From a virus: a stretch of DNA of 20,241 bases. The translations under genes were made by a program, and so were the position numbers. The DNA lies in the IMG/VR virus record IMGVR_UViG_3300037963_001515, positions 1-20,241 of that record; one strand, 5' to 3'. Positions 10,080-14,389 of the stretch are shown piece by piece; within the stretch, counting starts at the first letter, position 1; the number at the start of each line of letters is the position of its first letter. The notes beneath the pieces are model-generated. The model saw only the letters and a list, made by a program, of their open reading frames with translations, was not told the DNA's origin and ran no database searches.

Positions 10080-10772
10080 TTATGATTTTGCGTTTTGTTC
10101 TTCTGCAGCTACCGCTTGGCCAGCTACTTGTATTATTGTGGGATCATTAATTATAACACCTGCGTATGCTAATATTCTCATTATTATATTAGTTTGCTCG
10201 GATGGTGCTAATTCAAAAGCTGTAGATGCGGGAGGTGCTTGATATTCAAATTGACCTAAAGAACCTACACCGTATTGCCAAACAACATCTGAAGGTGTTT
10301 TTAAATATGATATAGTTATATTATCATTTATAGTAGTAGGGTAAATGTATAACTTGTCGTCTTCATATAAGTATATGGGAAAATGCTCAGTTGGTTGAGT
10401 TAACGGGGAAAGTAATATTTGTGTTAACTCGTTTCTTTGTGAGTATTGAGTAAGTTCTGTACCTTTATAAAACACGCTACCTAATCTATAAATATCAGTA
10501 GGTATTAAAGTAAATTCAGGTCCTACAAATGTTGTATTTCCTGTTCTTTGAAAAAACTGTAGTTTTTGTTGTATGTTTTTTACTCGGTCTGCATACTCAG
10601 TATCGTTTTGAGGAACACGGTATTGTTGATTTAAACTTTCAAAATAACTTTCAAATATATCTAGTTGCACTTGAGTAGCTACTTTATTGAACTCATCAGG
10701 TGTCATATATCCTCTTTGTTGTTGATTTAATATTAACAACACAGTTTTATATACAGTGTTTACGTTTACCAT
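10080..10772 (-). CDS. Head-completion / connector ring protein, 230 aa
   Basis: The protein starts MVNVNTVYKTVLLILNQQQRGYMTPDEF and has a helical N-terminal half (NKVATQVQLDIFESYFESLNQQYR, about residues 25-50, then YADRVKNIQQKLQFF). The C-terminal half is beta-rich (LIPTDIYRLGSVFY, FPIYLYEDDKLYIYP, NITISYLKTP) and ends in a helix. This helical-then-beta plan, together with a position after the capsid genes and before the larger ring protein, suits an adaptor that binds the portal or the next ring, in the functional niche of P22 gp4 or T7 gp11. I recall similar proteins in Bacteroidota and marine phages. A strong UUCG hairpin ends 16 bp upstream of the ATG. The start lacks a Shine-Dalgarno sequence. 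Confidence 0.65.
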   Translation of the reverse strand: MVNVNTVYKTVLLILNQQQRGYMTPDEFNKVATQVQLDIFESYFESLNQQYRVPQNDTEYADRVKNIQQKLQFFQRTGNTTFVGPEFTLIPTDIYRLGSVFYKGTELTQYSQRNELTQILLSPLTQPTEHFPIYLYEDDKLYIYPTTINDNITISYLKTPSDVVWQYGVGSLGQFEYQAPPASTAFELAPSEQTNIIMRILAYAGVIINDPTIIQVAGQAVAAEEQNAKS

Positions 10773-10788
10773 TATATTTTTATTGTTT

Positions 10789-10821
10789 AATATAGAGGCG
10801 GACGAATCCGCCCCTTATATT
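10789..10821 (-). other. Strong UUCG-tetraloop hairpin in the 5' leader of the 230-aa gene
   Basis: On the minus strand the inner stem is GGCGGA-UUCG-UCCGCC, at 10812-10797. It is extended by a G-U and a G-C pair and an AATATA/UATATT outer stem with a single bulged A, for about 14 pairs in all. It begins 2 nt after the TAA of the 271-residue gene and ends 16 nt before the next ATG. No U-tract follows (AAACAAUAAAAAUAU), so a classic intrinsic terminator is doubtful. A 3'-end stabiliser, processing site, pause site or weak terminator is as likely. The GC-rich stem stands out sharply in this AT-rich genome. Confidence 0.75.
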
Positions 10822-10823
10822 TA

Positions 10824-11639
10824 TTATAGTCTTTTTTCAATAGACTTATACACTTCAACTCCTTCATCAGTTTTAAACCATGATGCTAAAGCTGAATATG
10901 GATTTTCATCAAATGGAACAGCCATTAGTTTTCTGTCATTACTTCCCCAATGGAAAGATCTCTGATCAGATGATAATTTAATAATACCAAGCTCAACAGC
11001 ATTGATACCAAAATTTCTAAGCTGTACATTATCATCATTTGCAAGAGCTAAAAATAATTGAGGATTTTTCTTAGCAAGTAATAATAAATCTCTTTTTAAT
11101 TCTTTAGATGATAAAGATGAAACTTTTGAACCAATCTCAACTCTTACTATAGCTTCTGCATGATCAATATCCATGTTTTTAGCAGCATTTAATGCTTCTA
11201 TTTCAAACTCTATATCTTGTAATTGATCTTGAGCTACTCTTTGAGGAACATGCTCTATATATTTTTTATCACGCATAGGGTGATATAAAGAAAGTAATTG
11301 TTGTAAACCTACGTTTTCTTTAGGCACCGACAATGTTCCATCTCTAAAAATAATATGACCCATAGTTACTTCTCCTTTTTGTTCATCAACAAATGGTGAA
11401 CTCATATTTGTAGCATACCTAAGTTCTCTTTGAGTATTTTTTTCTGCATCAAACCATAACAGAGGATGTCTTCTGGTATGTTTACTAGGTATAGTAAATG
11501 TAAGTGGTTCTTTATTTCCTTTTAATAGATAAGTTCTATCTTTTATTTCCCAGCTATTTTTTTTAACTGGTTTTTCTTTTACAGGAGCAGGAGCTGTTAC
11601 AACTTCTTCAACCTGTTCTTCTTTTTTCTTTTTTGCCAT
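10824..11639 (-). CDS. Conserved-type phage head-region protein, 271 aa, function unknown
   Basis: The N-terminus is a Lys/Glu-rich then Ala/Pro-rich linker (MAKKKKEEQ, APAPVKEKPVKK, residues 1-28), followed by a compact soluble domain. Visible blocks are SWEIKDRTYLLKGNKEPLTF, HPLLWFDAEKNTQRELRYAT, SPFVDEQKGEV and the C-terminal FKTDEGVEVYKSIEKRL. I recall proteins with this LLWFD...REIRYA...SPFVDEQ layout directly behind the major capsid gene in uncultured marine phages, but know no established role. The position and flexible basic tail allow a head decoration, head-completion or DNA-contacting role, all of which is inference. The gene is isolated transcriptionally: a terminator hairpin lies upstream and a second hairpin just past its stop. 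Its 5' leader of about 25 nt is almost pure A/T. Confidence 0.75.
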   Translation of the reverse strand: MAKKKKEEQVEEVVTAPAPVKEKPVKKNSWEIKDRTYLLKGNKEPLTFTIPSKHTRRHPLLWFDAEKNTQRELRYATNMSSPFVDEQKGEVTMGHIIFRDGTLSVPKENVGLQQLLSLYHPMRDKKYIEHVPQRVAQDQLQDIEFEIEALNAAKNMDIDHAEAIVRVEIGSKVSSLSSKELKRDLLLLAKKNPQLFLALANDDNVQLRNFGINAVELGIIKLSSDQRSFHWGSNDRKLMAVPFDENPYSALASWFKTDEGVEVYKSIEKRL

Positions 11640-11661
11640 AATATAATATAATTAAATAGTT

Positions 11662-11696
11662 AAAAAGGTATATGGGCGCCGAAGCGCCCTTACCTT
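11662..11696 (-). terminator. Intrinsic terminator after the major capsid gene
   Basis: On the minus strand a perfect six-pair stem GGGCGC-UUCG-GCGCCC (11689-11674) sits inside a second six-pair stem AAGGUA/UACCUU (11696-11691 with 11670-11665), separated by a small A/AUA internal loop. A run of five U follows at 11666-11662. It starts 7 nt after the capsid gene's TAA and lies about 22 nt before the next ATG. Stem, UUCG loop and U-tract together fit a Rho-independent terminator. It may be partial, giving excess capsid mRNA, or may protect the 3' end. Confidence 0.85.
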
Positions 11697-11703
11697 ATAA
11701 TAG

Positions 11704-13161
11704 TTATACTCCTTGGAATAAAACAAAGTTGTTAGCAGCTTGAGTTACTAAACATCTTTCTGATAGGAAGTTAACTTCCATAGCATCAAGATCTGAAGTA
11801 AATGCTCCACCTGCAGAACCTGTTAACCAAGACTTCATTCTTCTATCATCACTTTGTGAAGCTCTATATCTTACGTGTAAGAAAGGTCTTCTGATGTTAG
11901 TACCAAGAACTTGATCGTATACTGTAGTAGTACCAGCTGGTATTAATACACCTTCAATAGAAGCAGGACCAACCATACCACCACGCGTAGAAGCGTCGTT
12001 TAAGTATTTCCAGTCTGTTTTATAGAAGTCATATGAACCTCTTCTGAAACCGCTAAAACCTAAGTTTAAAGCCATTTCTTCTGAGTTTTCAAATAAACCA
12101 TAAGCAGTACCACCTGCAGCACCTGAAGAAATGTTAGCTAACATATCATCAAATTCTAAAGCAGTCTCTCTATTTAAGAAAAGCATGTTCTCTTCAATAG
12201 CACCTTGAGTATCTAAGTTTCTAAGAACCTCGTCAAAATCTCCAATACCTGTAGCTGTAGAGAAACCAACTAATACATTACCTCTATCTTGGATAGCAGC
12301 AAATAAACCTTGAGAACCAATAGCTCCTGAAGCACCACCAGCAACTGCAGAACCTGCAGCAGTTAATTCTGATTCAACGCACATCATTTCTAAATAGTCT
12401 TCAAATCTAAGTCTAGTTTCAGATTCAGCTTTTAGATACCATAAATATCCTCCTGTTCCATCTTCTGTAGCAACTTCTACCCAACCGATTTGAGCCATAT
12501 CAGAACCATTAACAACATATTTGTTTCTGATAATGATAGGGTTGTTTTGGAATTGAGTAAATGCAGGGTCAACACTAATGTATTGTCCGTTTGCAAGAGT
12601 TGAAGTAGCACCAGCTCCTGGTACAAAGTTAGGAGTAACTGATCCTTTTGCATATTCAGCACCGTAAACAAATACTTTTACATTACCTACTAAACCAGCT
12701 CCTGCAATTGTAGCAGCAGTATAAGGTTCAACAGTAATAGTACCAGCACCTGGGTCAGAAATAGATACTAACGCTTTTACTTCAGCACCGAAGTCGTCCA
12801 TAATTACTACAGTCGCTCTAGCAGAAATAACGTTGTTAATATCAGCAGCACCAGTAGGGTTAACGTTAATTACGTTACCAGCTACAGTACAACCATCATA
12901 TGCAATGTGTAATCTATTTTGTTCAGACCAGATTACTTGGTCACTTGTCATAGGAAGTTCAGCACCAACCATTCTTAAGAATCCAGATAAAGTTCTGTTA
13001 CCATATCTTTCAACTTCTTGTTCGTAGATTTCCGGTAAATACTGCTGTGCAAAATCCGCAAAGTTAGCAGCTCCAGCGTCTGTCCACTGTAAATAGTTAG
13101 ACTGTAAAACCTCCTGTCTTTGTGATGGTACAATAGTACCAAATTGTGGGGTTAAAGCCAT
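11704..13161 (-). CDS. Major capsid protein
   Basis: The 485-residue protein has the look and place of a HK97-fold major capsid protein: directly after the scaffold-like gene, downstream of terminase and portal, and followed by a strong terminator. N-terminal residues 10-85 (VPSQRQEVLQSNYLQWTDAG, QQYLPEIYEQEVERYGNRT, MTSDQVIWSEQNRL) would be the N-arm and E-loop region. A beta-rich, Gly/Ala/Val-rich insertion spans about 90-200. The C-terminal half contains the spine helix candidates (EETRLRFEDYLEMM-like, 246-260; DFDEVLRNLDTQGAIEENMLFLNRETA, 308-334) and a final beta strand pair (RRPFLHVRYRASQSDDRRMKSW, 424-445; MEVNFLSERCLVTQAANNF, 461-479). No family-diagnostic residue is claimed; the call rests on gene order, length and remembered crAss-like capsid sequences. 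The leader is A-rich and lacks a Shine-Dalgarno sequence. Confidence 0.85.
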   Translation of the reverse strand: MALTPQFGTIVPSQRQEVLQSNYLQWTDAGAANFADFAQQYLPEIYEQEVERYGNRTLSGFLRMVGAELPMTSDQVIWSEQNRLHIAYDGCTVAGNVINVNPTGAADINNVISARATVVIMDDFGAEVKALVSISDPGAGTITVEPYTAATIAGAGLVGNVKVFVYGAEYAKGSVTPNFVPGAGATSTLANGQYISVDPAFTQFQNNPIIIRNKYVVNGSDMAQIGWVEVATEDGTGGYLWYLKAESETRLRFEDYLEMMCVESELTAAGSAVAGGASGAIGSQGLFAAIQDRGNVLVGFSTATGIGDFDEVLRNLDTQGAIEENMLFLNRETALEFDDMLANISSGAAGGTAYGLFENSEEMALNLGFSGFRRGSYDFYKTDWKYLNDASTRGGMVGPASIEGVLIPAGTTTVYDQVLGTNIRRPFLHVRYRASQSDDRRMKSWLTGSAGGAFTSDLDAMEVNFLSERCLVTQAANNFVLFQGV

Positions 13162-13172
13162 TTTTATTAATT

Positions 13173-14372
13173 TTAATTGTTAAAACTTCTCTTTTTAATT
13201 CTAAGTTTTGACGAATCCGTACCACTGACAGCTTTGACTTTAAAACCTTTTACAAATACATCCCCACCGGCAACTTGCCTCGGCGTATCTATAGAAGGGT
13301 TTTTAGAGCCGTCCACAACTTGTTTAATACCATCAGCTTTACCTTGCTCATAAAAATGAGTAGCAAGTTGATCGGCATTCATAGCTGTGTACATAGCTTT
13401 ATGATAACCAGCTGTATCTACCATGTCTCCTTTATCATTTAAATAAGGATTTACAAAGTTGTTAATATTAGACTGCTTATCAGCAACAGCGTTAGGATTT
13501 TTAACAGTATATCTAAATTTTTGGTCACCTACTTTAAAATCAAAACCTTTGAAATCTTCAGAAAACAATTTTTTAGTGTTGTCTTTAAATCTTTTATGCT
13601 GTTCTTCAACGATTTGTTGTTCGTCTTTATACCTATTGAAAAATTCCGTAGCCTTTTGTTGATCTTCATTAATTACATTACGAGTCTTAATAGAATCATA
13701 ATATCTATTTTTTAAATCATCTAAATGATTACGAGCTTCTGCAATAGCTTCTTTTTTAGCAAGTTTCTTTTTTTTGATGTCTCGCTCTTCATCAACTTCC
13801 TCATCATAACTAAAACTATCTTCCAGCATGAAAGATACTTCATCATCATTTAAATGAGGTTTAGTATTTTTATAGTATTCCTTTAACAATACATTTTCGT
13901 CTATATTAGTATAATCTCTATTTAATCTAACATAGTCTTCTAATGTACCTCCAGTTTGATTCATAAAATCAACTAGTTTATTTAAATTTTCAGGAACTTT
14001 TATTTCTTGTTCTACTTGTTTAACAGTTTGTTGTTCAACAGTTTCTTCAACACGCTCAATGGTTGACTCTTCTGTTTCATCTGTATTGATGATCCGTACT
14101 TCTTCTTCCATCTCTGGTAAATCTCCGGATGGTTTATCATCAGATAATTTTTCTGTTTTAGACTCTTGAACGGCATCTTCTTCTTTTTTATCTGTTAAAT
14201 CTACTTTTACAACTTCAGGTATAACTTCTCCTTGAGCTTCTGGTTTAGTTAAATCAACCTTTACTGGCTCATCATTATTTTTAGTTAAATCTTTAGTTTT
14301 TCTTTTAGGTTTAGACTTTATTTTAAAGTCACCTTCCTGTTTGACCTCTACGGCCGCTTTTTGTTCTGCCAT
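13173..14372 (-). CDS. Scaffold / prohead-core-like protein, 399 aa
   Basis: The first 125 residues are disordered, Lys/Glu/Asp-rich and low in hydrophobics. A short duplicated motif, VKVDLT, occurs at 37-42 and 55-60. Residues 127-190 form a compact helical block (LNKLVDFMNQTGGTLEDYVRL, LLKEYYKNTKPHLNDDEVSF). A charged coiled coil follows (about 190-270, EEVDEERDIKKKKLAKKEAI and onward), and the C-terminal third ends basic (KLRIKKRSF). Acidic disordered and coiled-coil regions, and a location between portal and capsid genes, are the usual marks of a scaffolding protein. I recall the YYKNTKPHL...DEEVDEER block from marine phage genomes at the same locus. No protease motif is apparent. It ends 11 bp before the capsid ATG. 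Confidence 0.7.
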   Translation of the reverse strand: MAEQKAAVEVKQEGDFKIKSKPKRKTKDLTKNNDEPVKVDLTKPEAQGEVIPEVVKVDLTDKKEEDAVQESKTEKLSDDKPSGDLPEMEEEVRIINTDETEESTIERVEETVEQQTVKQVEQEIKVPENLNKLVDFMNQTGGTLEDYVRLNRDYTNIDENVLLKEYYKNTKPHLNDDEVSFMLEDSFSYDEEVDEERDIKKKKLAKKEAIAEARNHLDDLKNRYYDSIKTRNVINEDQQKATEFFNRYKDEQQIVEEQHKRFKDNTKKLFSEDFKGFDFKVGDQKFRYTVKNPNAVADKQSNINNFVNPYLNDKGDMVDTAGYHKAMYTAMNADQLATHFYEQGKADGIKQVVDGSKNPSIDTPRQVAGGDVFVKGFKVKAVSGTDSSKLRIKKRSFNN

Positions 14373-14389
14373 AATAAAATATTATAAAA

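Follow-up and report, generated by a model that had tools for sequence, protein, structure and literature searches.

Two hairpins flank the gene behind the capsid gene

The window analyzed here is a whole virus record of 20,241 bases, with its main genes on the minus strand in the order terminase, portal (POR), SCA, MCP, X, N, and further virion genes. MCP (11704..13161, minus strand, 485 aa) belongs to PHROG 13704 (head and packaging, virion structural protein) and was named major capsid protein gene by homology to the crAss-like gene order. SCA (13173..14372, minus strand, 399 aa) lies directly 5' to MCP; its name, scaffold-like, was taken from position and composition only, and a search for a family match to its protein returned none. 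Gene X (10824..11639, minus strand, 271 aa) is followed by N (10080..10772, minus strand, 230 aa), which encodes a virion structural protein of PHROG 14543. The gaps on either side of X, 64 nt between MCP and X and 51 nt between X and N, were the widest among the 14 genes taken, with the next at 31 nt. No Rfam family at the gathering score and no tRNA was found in the window, and a scan of it for σ70-type promoters carried no information (97 hits versus 96.3 expected). The host was assigned from cultured relatives together with 28 metagenome-binned contigs, of which 17 carry Bacteroidota names and 11 other names.

Both gaps hold a hairpin. Hairpin 1, after MCP (11665..11696, minus strand), reads AAGGUA-A-GGGCGC(UUCG)GCGCCC-AUA-UACCUU from 11696 to 11665, then UUUAAC. 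It has a cUUCGg loop on a core of six G-C pairs, with a six-pair outer stem behind an internal loop; its fold was -18.9 kcal/mol (z -4.3), and 0/200 shuffles were equally stable. A run of five U (11662..11666, minus strand) stands at its 3' foot, the first two pairing in the outer stem. Hairpin 2, after X (10789..10821, minus strand), reads AAUAU-A-AGGGGCGGA(UUCG)UCCGCCUCU-AUAUU from 10821 to 10789. Its fold was -17.4 kcal/mol (z -4.8; equally stable shuffles, 1/200), and its core consists of five G-C pairs and one A-U pair closing the loop, above an A/U-rich lower stem. Since the loop of hairpin 2 is closed by A-U, the canonical extra-stable cUUCGg was found only in hairpin 1. These were the only stems in the window with at least 6 perfect pairs, at least 5 of them G-C, and a loop of 3-8 nt. 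Among 200 dinucleotide shuffles the mean of this stem class was 0.1, and a UUCG-looped stem never occurred; TTCG itself was rarer in the window than chance (32 versus 55 expected). The preliminary description of this DNA, which reported two hairpins with UUCG loops, six-pair GC-rich cores and A/U outer stems in the two widest gaps, therefore agreed with the folds, the shuffles, and the gap lengths.

We further compared both hairpins with the form of an intrinsic terminator. Each is GC-rich and shortly follows an ORF. A U-tract directly after the stem was present in hairpin 1 (five U) and absent from hairpin 2, where the GC stem is followed by UAUAUUAAAC. The terminator score after d'Aubenton-Carafa, whose formula was made for E. 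coli, was 21.7 for hairpin 1 and 1.2 for hairpin 2. Hairpin 1 is placed between the capsid gene and later genes of the same strand, similar to T-phi of phage T7. TAnnTTTG boxes were sought in the two window gaps (MCP-X and X-N), and neither contained one. By its sequence, hairpin 1 of the window still looks like a terminator and hairpin 2 hardly does, with exceptions elsewhere in its clade; the earlier calls of a terminator-like first hairpin and of a second one lacking a U-tract were thus borne out.

Stems at both gaps are conserved and covary

Relatives were collected from viral contigs as the best 80 of at least 600 in a search with MCP and the best 80 of 197 in a search with X. Hairpins were counted in gaps of 20-250 nt, available for 150 (MCP-X) and 136 (X-N) of the 160 relatives, plus the window. 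Identical gap sequences were counted once, so that counts represent distinct sequences rather than events, and the loci are not independent. The start codon was picked by script as the ATG nearest the aligned start, and a few gaps are consequently too long. The MCP of MW202828 was used as the query for 80 further contigs (the best 80 of at least 600), referred to as the sister clade. U runs and UNCG loops were counted in gaps of 30-160 nt, and terminator scores were calculated for gaps of 30-130 nt.

Among the matches listed, a hairpin with at least 5 G-C pairs was present in 125/125 distinct MCP-X gaps (z < -2 in 124/125), and one with at least 4 G-C pairs in 104/104 distinct X-N gaps (at least 5 in 96; z < -2 in 103/104). 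By eye, the stems of different subgroups were unrelated in sequence. For covariation at hairpin 1, we chose 38 of the 126 distinct gap sequences, and MAFFT aligned them with no structural information. In these 38, 95.9% of cells were paired and double changes were seen in 6/6 core pairs; the covariation score was reached by 0/500 shuffles, and slid versions were 40-57% paired. For hairpin 2, eight closely related X-N gaps (set A3) were chosen from 86 for their nearly gap-free alignment. All 128 cells paired (100%) in these eight, with double changes in 4 pairs; 5/500 shuffles reached 4 double-change pairs and 0/500 reached the covariation score. RNAalifold on 35 chosen X-N gaps (set A1) gave no consensus structure because MAFFT had put the stems out of register, and the covariation of hairpin 2 therefore rests on the eight sequences of A3. 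Stems with compensatory changes were thus found at both gaps in relatives, where the preliminary description had proposed to look for them.

In nine contigs of the window's clade, 9/11 intergenic stems of the strict class defined in the window were located at MCP-X or X-N. Three of the nine (G003, G009, and G010) had no stem of this class, and their hairpins were less regular. The sense fold was stabler than the antisense fold in 85/125 MCP-X and 96/104 X-N gaps among the matches listed; this does not favor a DNA-level function on both strands, which we had considered. The loop behaved differently from the stem. UNCG loops were found in 51/126 MCP-X and 32/86 X-N gaps of the window's clade, versus 1/64 and 0/50 in the sister clade (among the matches listed), and loops differed both between and within clades. 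UUCG is thus a loop type that the window's clade tends to use, whereas the conservation at these positions does not extend to it, and we rejected it as a conserved feature.

In L002, L077, L086, L101, and L105, hairpin 1 takes a variant form, two short stems separated by a symmetric internal loop (AAAAA / CAAAAA); L086 encodes a 97% identical X. In the MCP-X gaps of L009, L028, L038, L056, L059, and L080, the first hairpin is succeeded by another, longer one that starts with TGACATTAGCC.

Terminator form and promoter boxes divide the relatives

We then dissected the two gaps by clade. The five named X-N gaps were those of MW202828, two near-identical elemo phages, phi38:1, and the near-identical Calle_3. 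Among the matches listed, X-N scores exceeded 10 in 50/50 sister-clade gaps and 5/5 named gaps versus 24/86 gaps of the window's clade, where 44/86 scored above 0. Five or more consecutive U within 30 nt of the loop were present in 46/50, 5/5, and 4/86 X-N gaps respectively (matches listed). Under a stricter measure, a run of at least 4 in the 10 nt after the outermost G-C pair, the contrast was 34/50 in the sister clade versus 13/86 in the window's clade (among the matches listed). The window's clade has 18 further X-N gap sequences longer than those counted for U runs, and in two of these a run of at least 5 was seen (U9 in L128 and U8 in L156). Since 44/86 gaps score above 0 and these two loci keep U9 and U8, termination at hairpin 2 may persist in the window's clade. 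By comparison with relatives, hairpin 2 nevertheless seems to be a former terminator.

At MCP-X, scores exceeded 10 in 60/64 sister-clade gaps, 5/5 named gaps, and 52/125 gaps of the window's clade, with 82/125 of the latter above 0 (among the matches listed). U runs of this length, at the same distance from the loop, occurred in 51/64, 5/5, and 52/126 respectively, again among the matches listed. By score and U run, many members of the window's clade have a hairpin 1 that would terminate poorly, which counts against the reading that we set out below.

The Bacteroidota -7 box TAnnTTTG has been refined to TAHHTTTG in F. johnsoniae, as stated in a portion of PMC6847099. Boxes of the form TAnnTTTG were counted over distinct gap sequences 30 nt or longer. 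Among the matches listed, the X-N gap contained a box in 57/57 sister-clade and 5/5 named sequences and in 1/104 of the window's clade; the POR-SCA gap did so in 53/53, 5/5, and 0/48 respectively, and in 0/101 of the window's clade at any gap length. The MCP-X gap had a box in 0/65 sister-clade, 2/5 named, and 6/126 window-clade sequences (among the matches listed). All six of the last, TATATTTG in similar gaps, sit before the hairpin and not between the hairpin and X. In a subgroup of the clade (L129, L130, L136, L143, L146, and L154), TATATTTG directly follows the capsid stop codon; it may be a promoter or a chance occurrence in AT-rich DNA. In elemo and MW202828 a box is present between hairpin 1 and X, which counts against a need for read-through.

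Upstream of genes generally, TAnnTTTG was at chance in five contigs of the window's clade. It was enriched in the parts taken of elemoA (14 versus 1.6) and MW202828 (9 versus 2.1), less clear in phi38:1 (6 versus 1.0, with one permuted motif as high), and not enriched in Panino (4 versus 1.8, with 5/29 permuted motifs as high). An EM motif search recovered TAnCTTTG from sister-clade and named phages, whereas its output for the window's clade included no motif of similar clarity. In an MCP tree made by a quick method from 83 of 239 proteins left by a similarity filter, the rows without TAnnTTTG formed one group (57 rows, one of them unlabelled; SH-aLRT 98), and the sister group comprised 22 rows (SH-aLRT 100). 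The box label needs two changes on the tree, because the sister row L246, with an 11-nt POR-SCA gap, has no box.

The capsid-gene hairpin is present in cultured phages

By tblastn, MCP and X were found together in 85 phage records: 68 Flavobacterium elemo phages, 15 Cellulophaga phages, Maribacter phage Panino, and MW202828. The MCP-X gap contained a hairpin and, with it, a long U-tract in elemoA, MW202828, phi38:1, phi19:3, Panino, and Calle_3. In the X-N gap of elemoA, MW202828, phi38:1, and Calle_3, a hairpin with a long U-tract was followed at once by TAnnTTTG. Gene order, gaps, and hairpin place in elemo, MW202828, phi38:1, Calle_3, and the sister clade are like those of the window; in contrast to them, the window's clade has no POR-SCA and X-N boxes, has mostly lost the U-tract of hairpin 2, and frequently has UNCG loops. 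No hairpin directly followed X in phi19:3. Hairpins at further gene junctions of relatives, for instance two more in phi38:1 and one in Panino, count against our interpretation. X and N of phi19:3 are separated by an inserted block of small genes on the reverse strand (L166 11871-13951), and small genes are also inserted behind X in Panino.

Two members of more distant groups were informative. In crAss001, whose gene order matches here, gp31 (in the SCA position) stands behind a TATCTTTG box and is followed by the capsid gene gp32, and the 71-nt gp32-gp33 gap has a strong terminator form (score 51.5). The X profile identified gp33 as the X homologue (HMM E 1.7e-5, among the frames of 50 kb). 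Unlike the window, only 4 nt separate gp33 from gp34, with no second hairpin. Stranded RNA-seq of crAss001 exists, as mentioned in a section of PMC8375218. In phi14:2 (Crassvirales), the gap between the capsid gene and g090 has a hairpin with a poor U-tract (score -3.4), TATATTTG lies in the POR-SCA gap, and the X profile matched g090 weakly (E 0.0034 in a search of two proteins). The poor score of the phi14:2 hairpin counts against the reading set out below. Because a capsid-gene hairpin occurs in cultured flavophages, phi14:2, and crAss001, it is probably older than these phage families.

A proposed leaky attenuator and a probable former terminator

Taken at sequence level, these data lead us to favor, with moderate confidence, a reading in which hairpin 1 is a leaky attenuator behind the capsid gene and hairpin 2 is a former terminator kept as an RNA element after its promoter was lost and its U-tract mostly so. 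Outside the window's clade, the order would be promoter, SCA, MCP, terminator, X, terminator, promoter, then N and the tail genes. Transcripts of SCA and MCP would mostly end at hairpin 1, acting as a leaky intrinsic terminator, and the fraction reading through would supply X and, in the window's clade, the genes behind X. Capsid mRNA would thereby be in excess over X, following the logic of T-phi in T7. Most relatives have no recognisable promoter between hairpin 1 and X, and X probably depends on read-through for this reason, although a promoter of another type may lie there. That absence of TAnnTTTG fits the suggestion, made in the preliminary description, that the hairpins may set an excess of capsid mRNA.

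The ancestor of hairpin 2 would have been a true terminator, of the kind that sister-clade phages and several cultured relatives have just ahead of a host-type promoter serving the neck and tail genes. Within the window's clade, the X-N promoter would have been lost and the U-tract mostly decayed, with transcription continuing from X into N. Once the host-type boxes were gone, N and the tail genes would be fed through X, so that a strong second terminator would be harmful, consistent with the U-tract being mostly gone. The stem of hairpin 2 was kept and covaries without a U-tract; this is best explained if the stem acts in the RNA, for example as a block to 3' exonucleases behind X, and suggests a post-transcriptional function of hairpin 2 in the window's clade. 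Selection would have kept the stem most likely as a 3'-end barrier or processing boundary of the X message. An earlier idea was that the hairpins insulate a separately transcribed gene. It fits the X-N gap of the sister clade, elemo, MW202828, and phi38:1-like phages, where a terminator is coupled to a promoter; in the window's clade, the promoter is gone and the U-tract of hairpin 2 mostly lost.

A rather unlikely alternative is that neither hairpin terminates transcription in this clade, and that both are 3'-end barriers or processing boundaries of a long late transcript that is cleaved, stabilising the capsid and X messages. Short U-tracts at hairpin 1 and mostly missing ones at hairpin 2 are compatible with this, as are stems that are kept while U-tracts vary and the frequency of stable UNCG loops in the clade counted above. 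Hairpin 1 of the window, however, has five U and a positive terminator score, and MCP-X scores above 10 prevailed in the named phages and the sister clade, with crAss001 at 51.5 and phi14:2 as the exception.

A sigma factor and a bipartite motif in the window's clade

A sigma-factor gene of PHROG 351 (E 1.5e-19 and 4e-21) was found in the window's clade, on the minus strand of L174 (3782-4561) and L178 (8420-9175). Of the Pfam sigma regions, region 2 was below cut-off and region 4 just above it in one of the two proteins. The gene was present in 7/20 contigs of the clade. It was not found, by protein or by profile, in 11 sister contigs and 5 named phages, and tblastn against 50,697 phage records gave one weak match. 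Its neighbor is a primase-helicase-like gene with Toprim and DnaB_C domains. When this neighbor was sought in 13 of the 20 contigs, six had both it and the sigma gene and five had neither; in G011 and G013 it lies at the contig end, with the place of the sigma gene cut off. None of the 11 sister contigs was matched by the primase query either, and these contigs may not reach into the early region.

A count of spaced tetramers revealed a bipartite motif, TTACAAACTAAATACGA-N9-GATAATAT, before presumed early small genes on the strand opposite the late genes. Hits of at least 15/18 numbered 8, 8, 11, 7, 8, and 9 in G003, G005, G009, G004, G006, and G010, versus 1, 0, 1, 1, 1, and 2 in the reversed-sequence control of the same six contigs; a few of the real hits are strays on the late strand. 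G007 had 4 hits (control 0), G011 had 0 (control 2), and G001 (51 kb, X 97% identical) had 2 at one end (control 5). Sister and named phages had 0 or 1. The window itself contains no sigma gene and no bipartite motif (control 1), both being known from relatives, and a motif of this type was absent from the late region. A search of eight relatives for a T7-type polymerase found none, though its control likewise gave no match. It is conceivable, and we propose it tentatively, that a large marine clade of Bacteroidota phages switched promoter systems: it would have gained its own sigma factor and promoter class, lost TAnnTTTG, reduced the coupled terminator and promoter behind X to a hairpin acting on mRNA only, and kept the capsid attenuator, on which the later genes would depend.

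An AT-rich element precedes X and SCA

An AT-rich element (11640..11661, minus strand) adjoins the ATG of X and is near-invariant in the clade. A divergent copy precedes SCA (14373..14389, minus strand), in the gap where relatives outside the clade have TAnnTTTG. When a matrix derived from these leaders was run on five contigs of 43-68 kb, its two best hits lay before SCA and X, with one weaker third hit in G009. A 5-nt period was present in the SCA and X leaders of both clades (0.64 and 0.67; 0.52 and 0.56; shuffles about 0.44 and 0.37), was absent from MCP leaders, and was hardly present in N leaders (0.46 versus 0.39; 0.25 versus 0.31). Periods of 3, 8, and 10 were raised too in leaders of the window's clade. 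AAATT-like repeats running into the ATG were also seen at genes for a Cpn60 chaperonin and for the primase-helicase-like protein (G001 7549, G005 60644, G007 5192, and G003 41976).

The element may be a translation leader, which we favor, or a late promoter of the phage sigma factor. The translation leader is favored because the position of the element is fixed relative to the ATG and because the corresponding leader before the sister SCA lies behind a promoter. A late promoter in the element of X would make read-through needless. The transcriptional punctuation would then persist: hairpin 1 would terminate, the element would start a nearly leaderless unit of X and the following genes, and hairpin 2 could lose its U-tract because the promoter had in effect moved from behind X to before X. 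We consider this unlikely. The two best matrix hits before SCA and X, the position of the POR-SCA element where outside relatives have TAnnTTTG, and the sigma factor carried by the clade are in its favor. The lock to the ATG is not, nor is the sister SCA leader, which lies between the -7 box and the ATG and so is 5' UTR; moreover, only two sites occur in the late region, and AAATT-repeat leaders before other genes too point to translation.

That the hairpin and AU-repeat leader of X form a translational operator linking X and SCA translation to a phage RNA-binding protein is very improbable, for although both clades share the 5-nt period of the SCA and X leaders and the T4 gene 32 operator, folded RNA then UUAAA repeats in the account given in part of PMC535899, is a precedent, SCA bears the leader without a hairpin, other periods are raised as well in the window's clade, and the repeats before the chaperonin and primase-helicase genes suggest that the leader may only favor initiation.

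Comparison with known systems and gene X

In phage T7, T-phi lies behind capsid gene 10. Hairpin 1 is like T-phi in being a candidate terminator right after the major capsid gene, with later genes behind it that would need read-through. We know of no T7 counterpart of hairpin 2 or of the loss of its promoter. The native T7 terminator hairpin is inefficient (62%), according to a passage of PMC9157156. A multisubunit polymerase is expected for the phage of the window, unlike T7. The C(UUCG)G motif of hairpin 1 is shared with the cUUCGg hairpins that phage T4 has; hairpin 2 differs from them in its A-U closing pair, and the loop varies across relatives, so it is not the conserved part. We found no paper on these gaps by title and opening of the abstract.

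A hairpin behind the capsid gene that extends from the gut phage crAss001 to cultured flavophages and the marine clade, its sequence replaced repeatedly, would represent a regulatory mark of deep conservation in this group and a simple way to control dosage during capsid assembly. The clade with the sigma factor offers a natural experiment, in which genes and hairpins stay the same and host promoter boxes are present or absent, and it lets one ask why a terminator hairpin stays once its promoter partner is lost.

The structure model of X (pLDDT 89) had no match in the PDB at E < 0.001 by fold, and its sequence had none there up to E 1. By fold, the model matched unnamed proteins of Tenacibaculum phage Gundel_1, phi14:2, and crAss-like phages. 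In phi38:1, X (L165 34263-35063) is annotated as hypothetical between genes called structural, and in phi14:2 the genes in the X and SCA places (L288 25066-25950, 27568-28692) are without the MS/MS note that most of their neighbors have. Going by this annotation and the MS/MS notes, X may be an assembly factor rather than a part of the virion.
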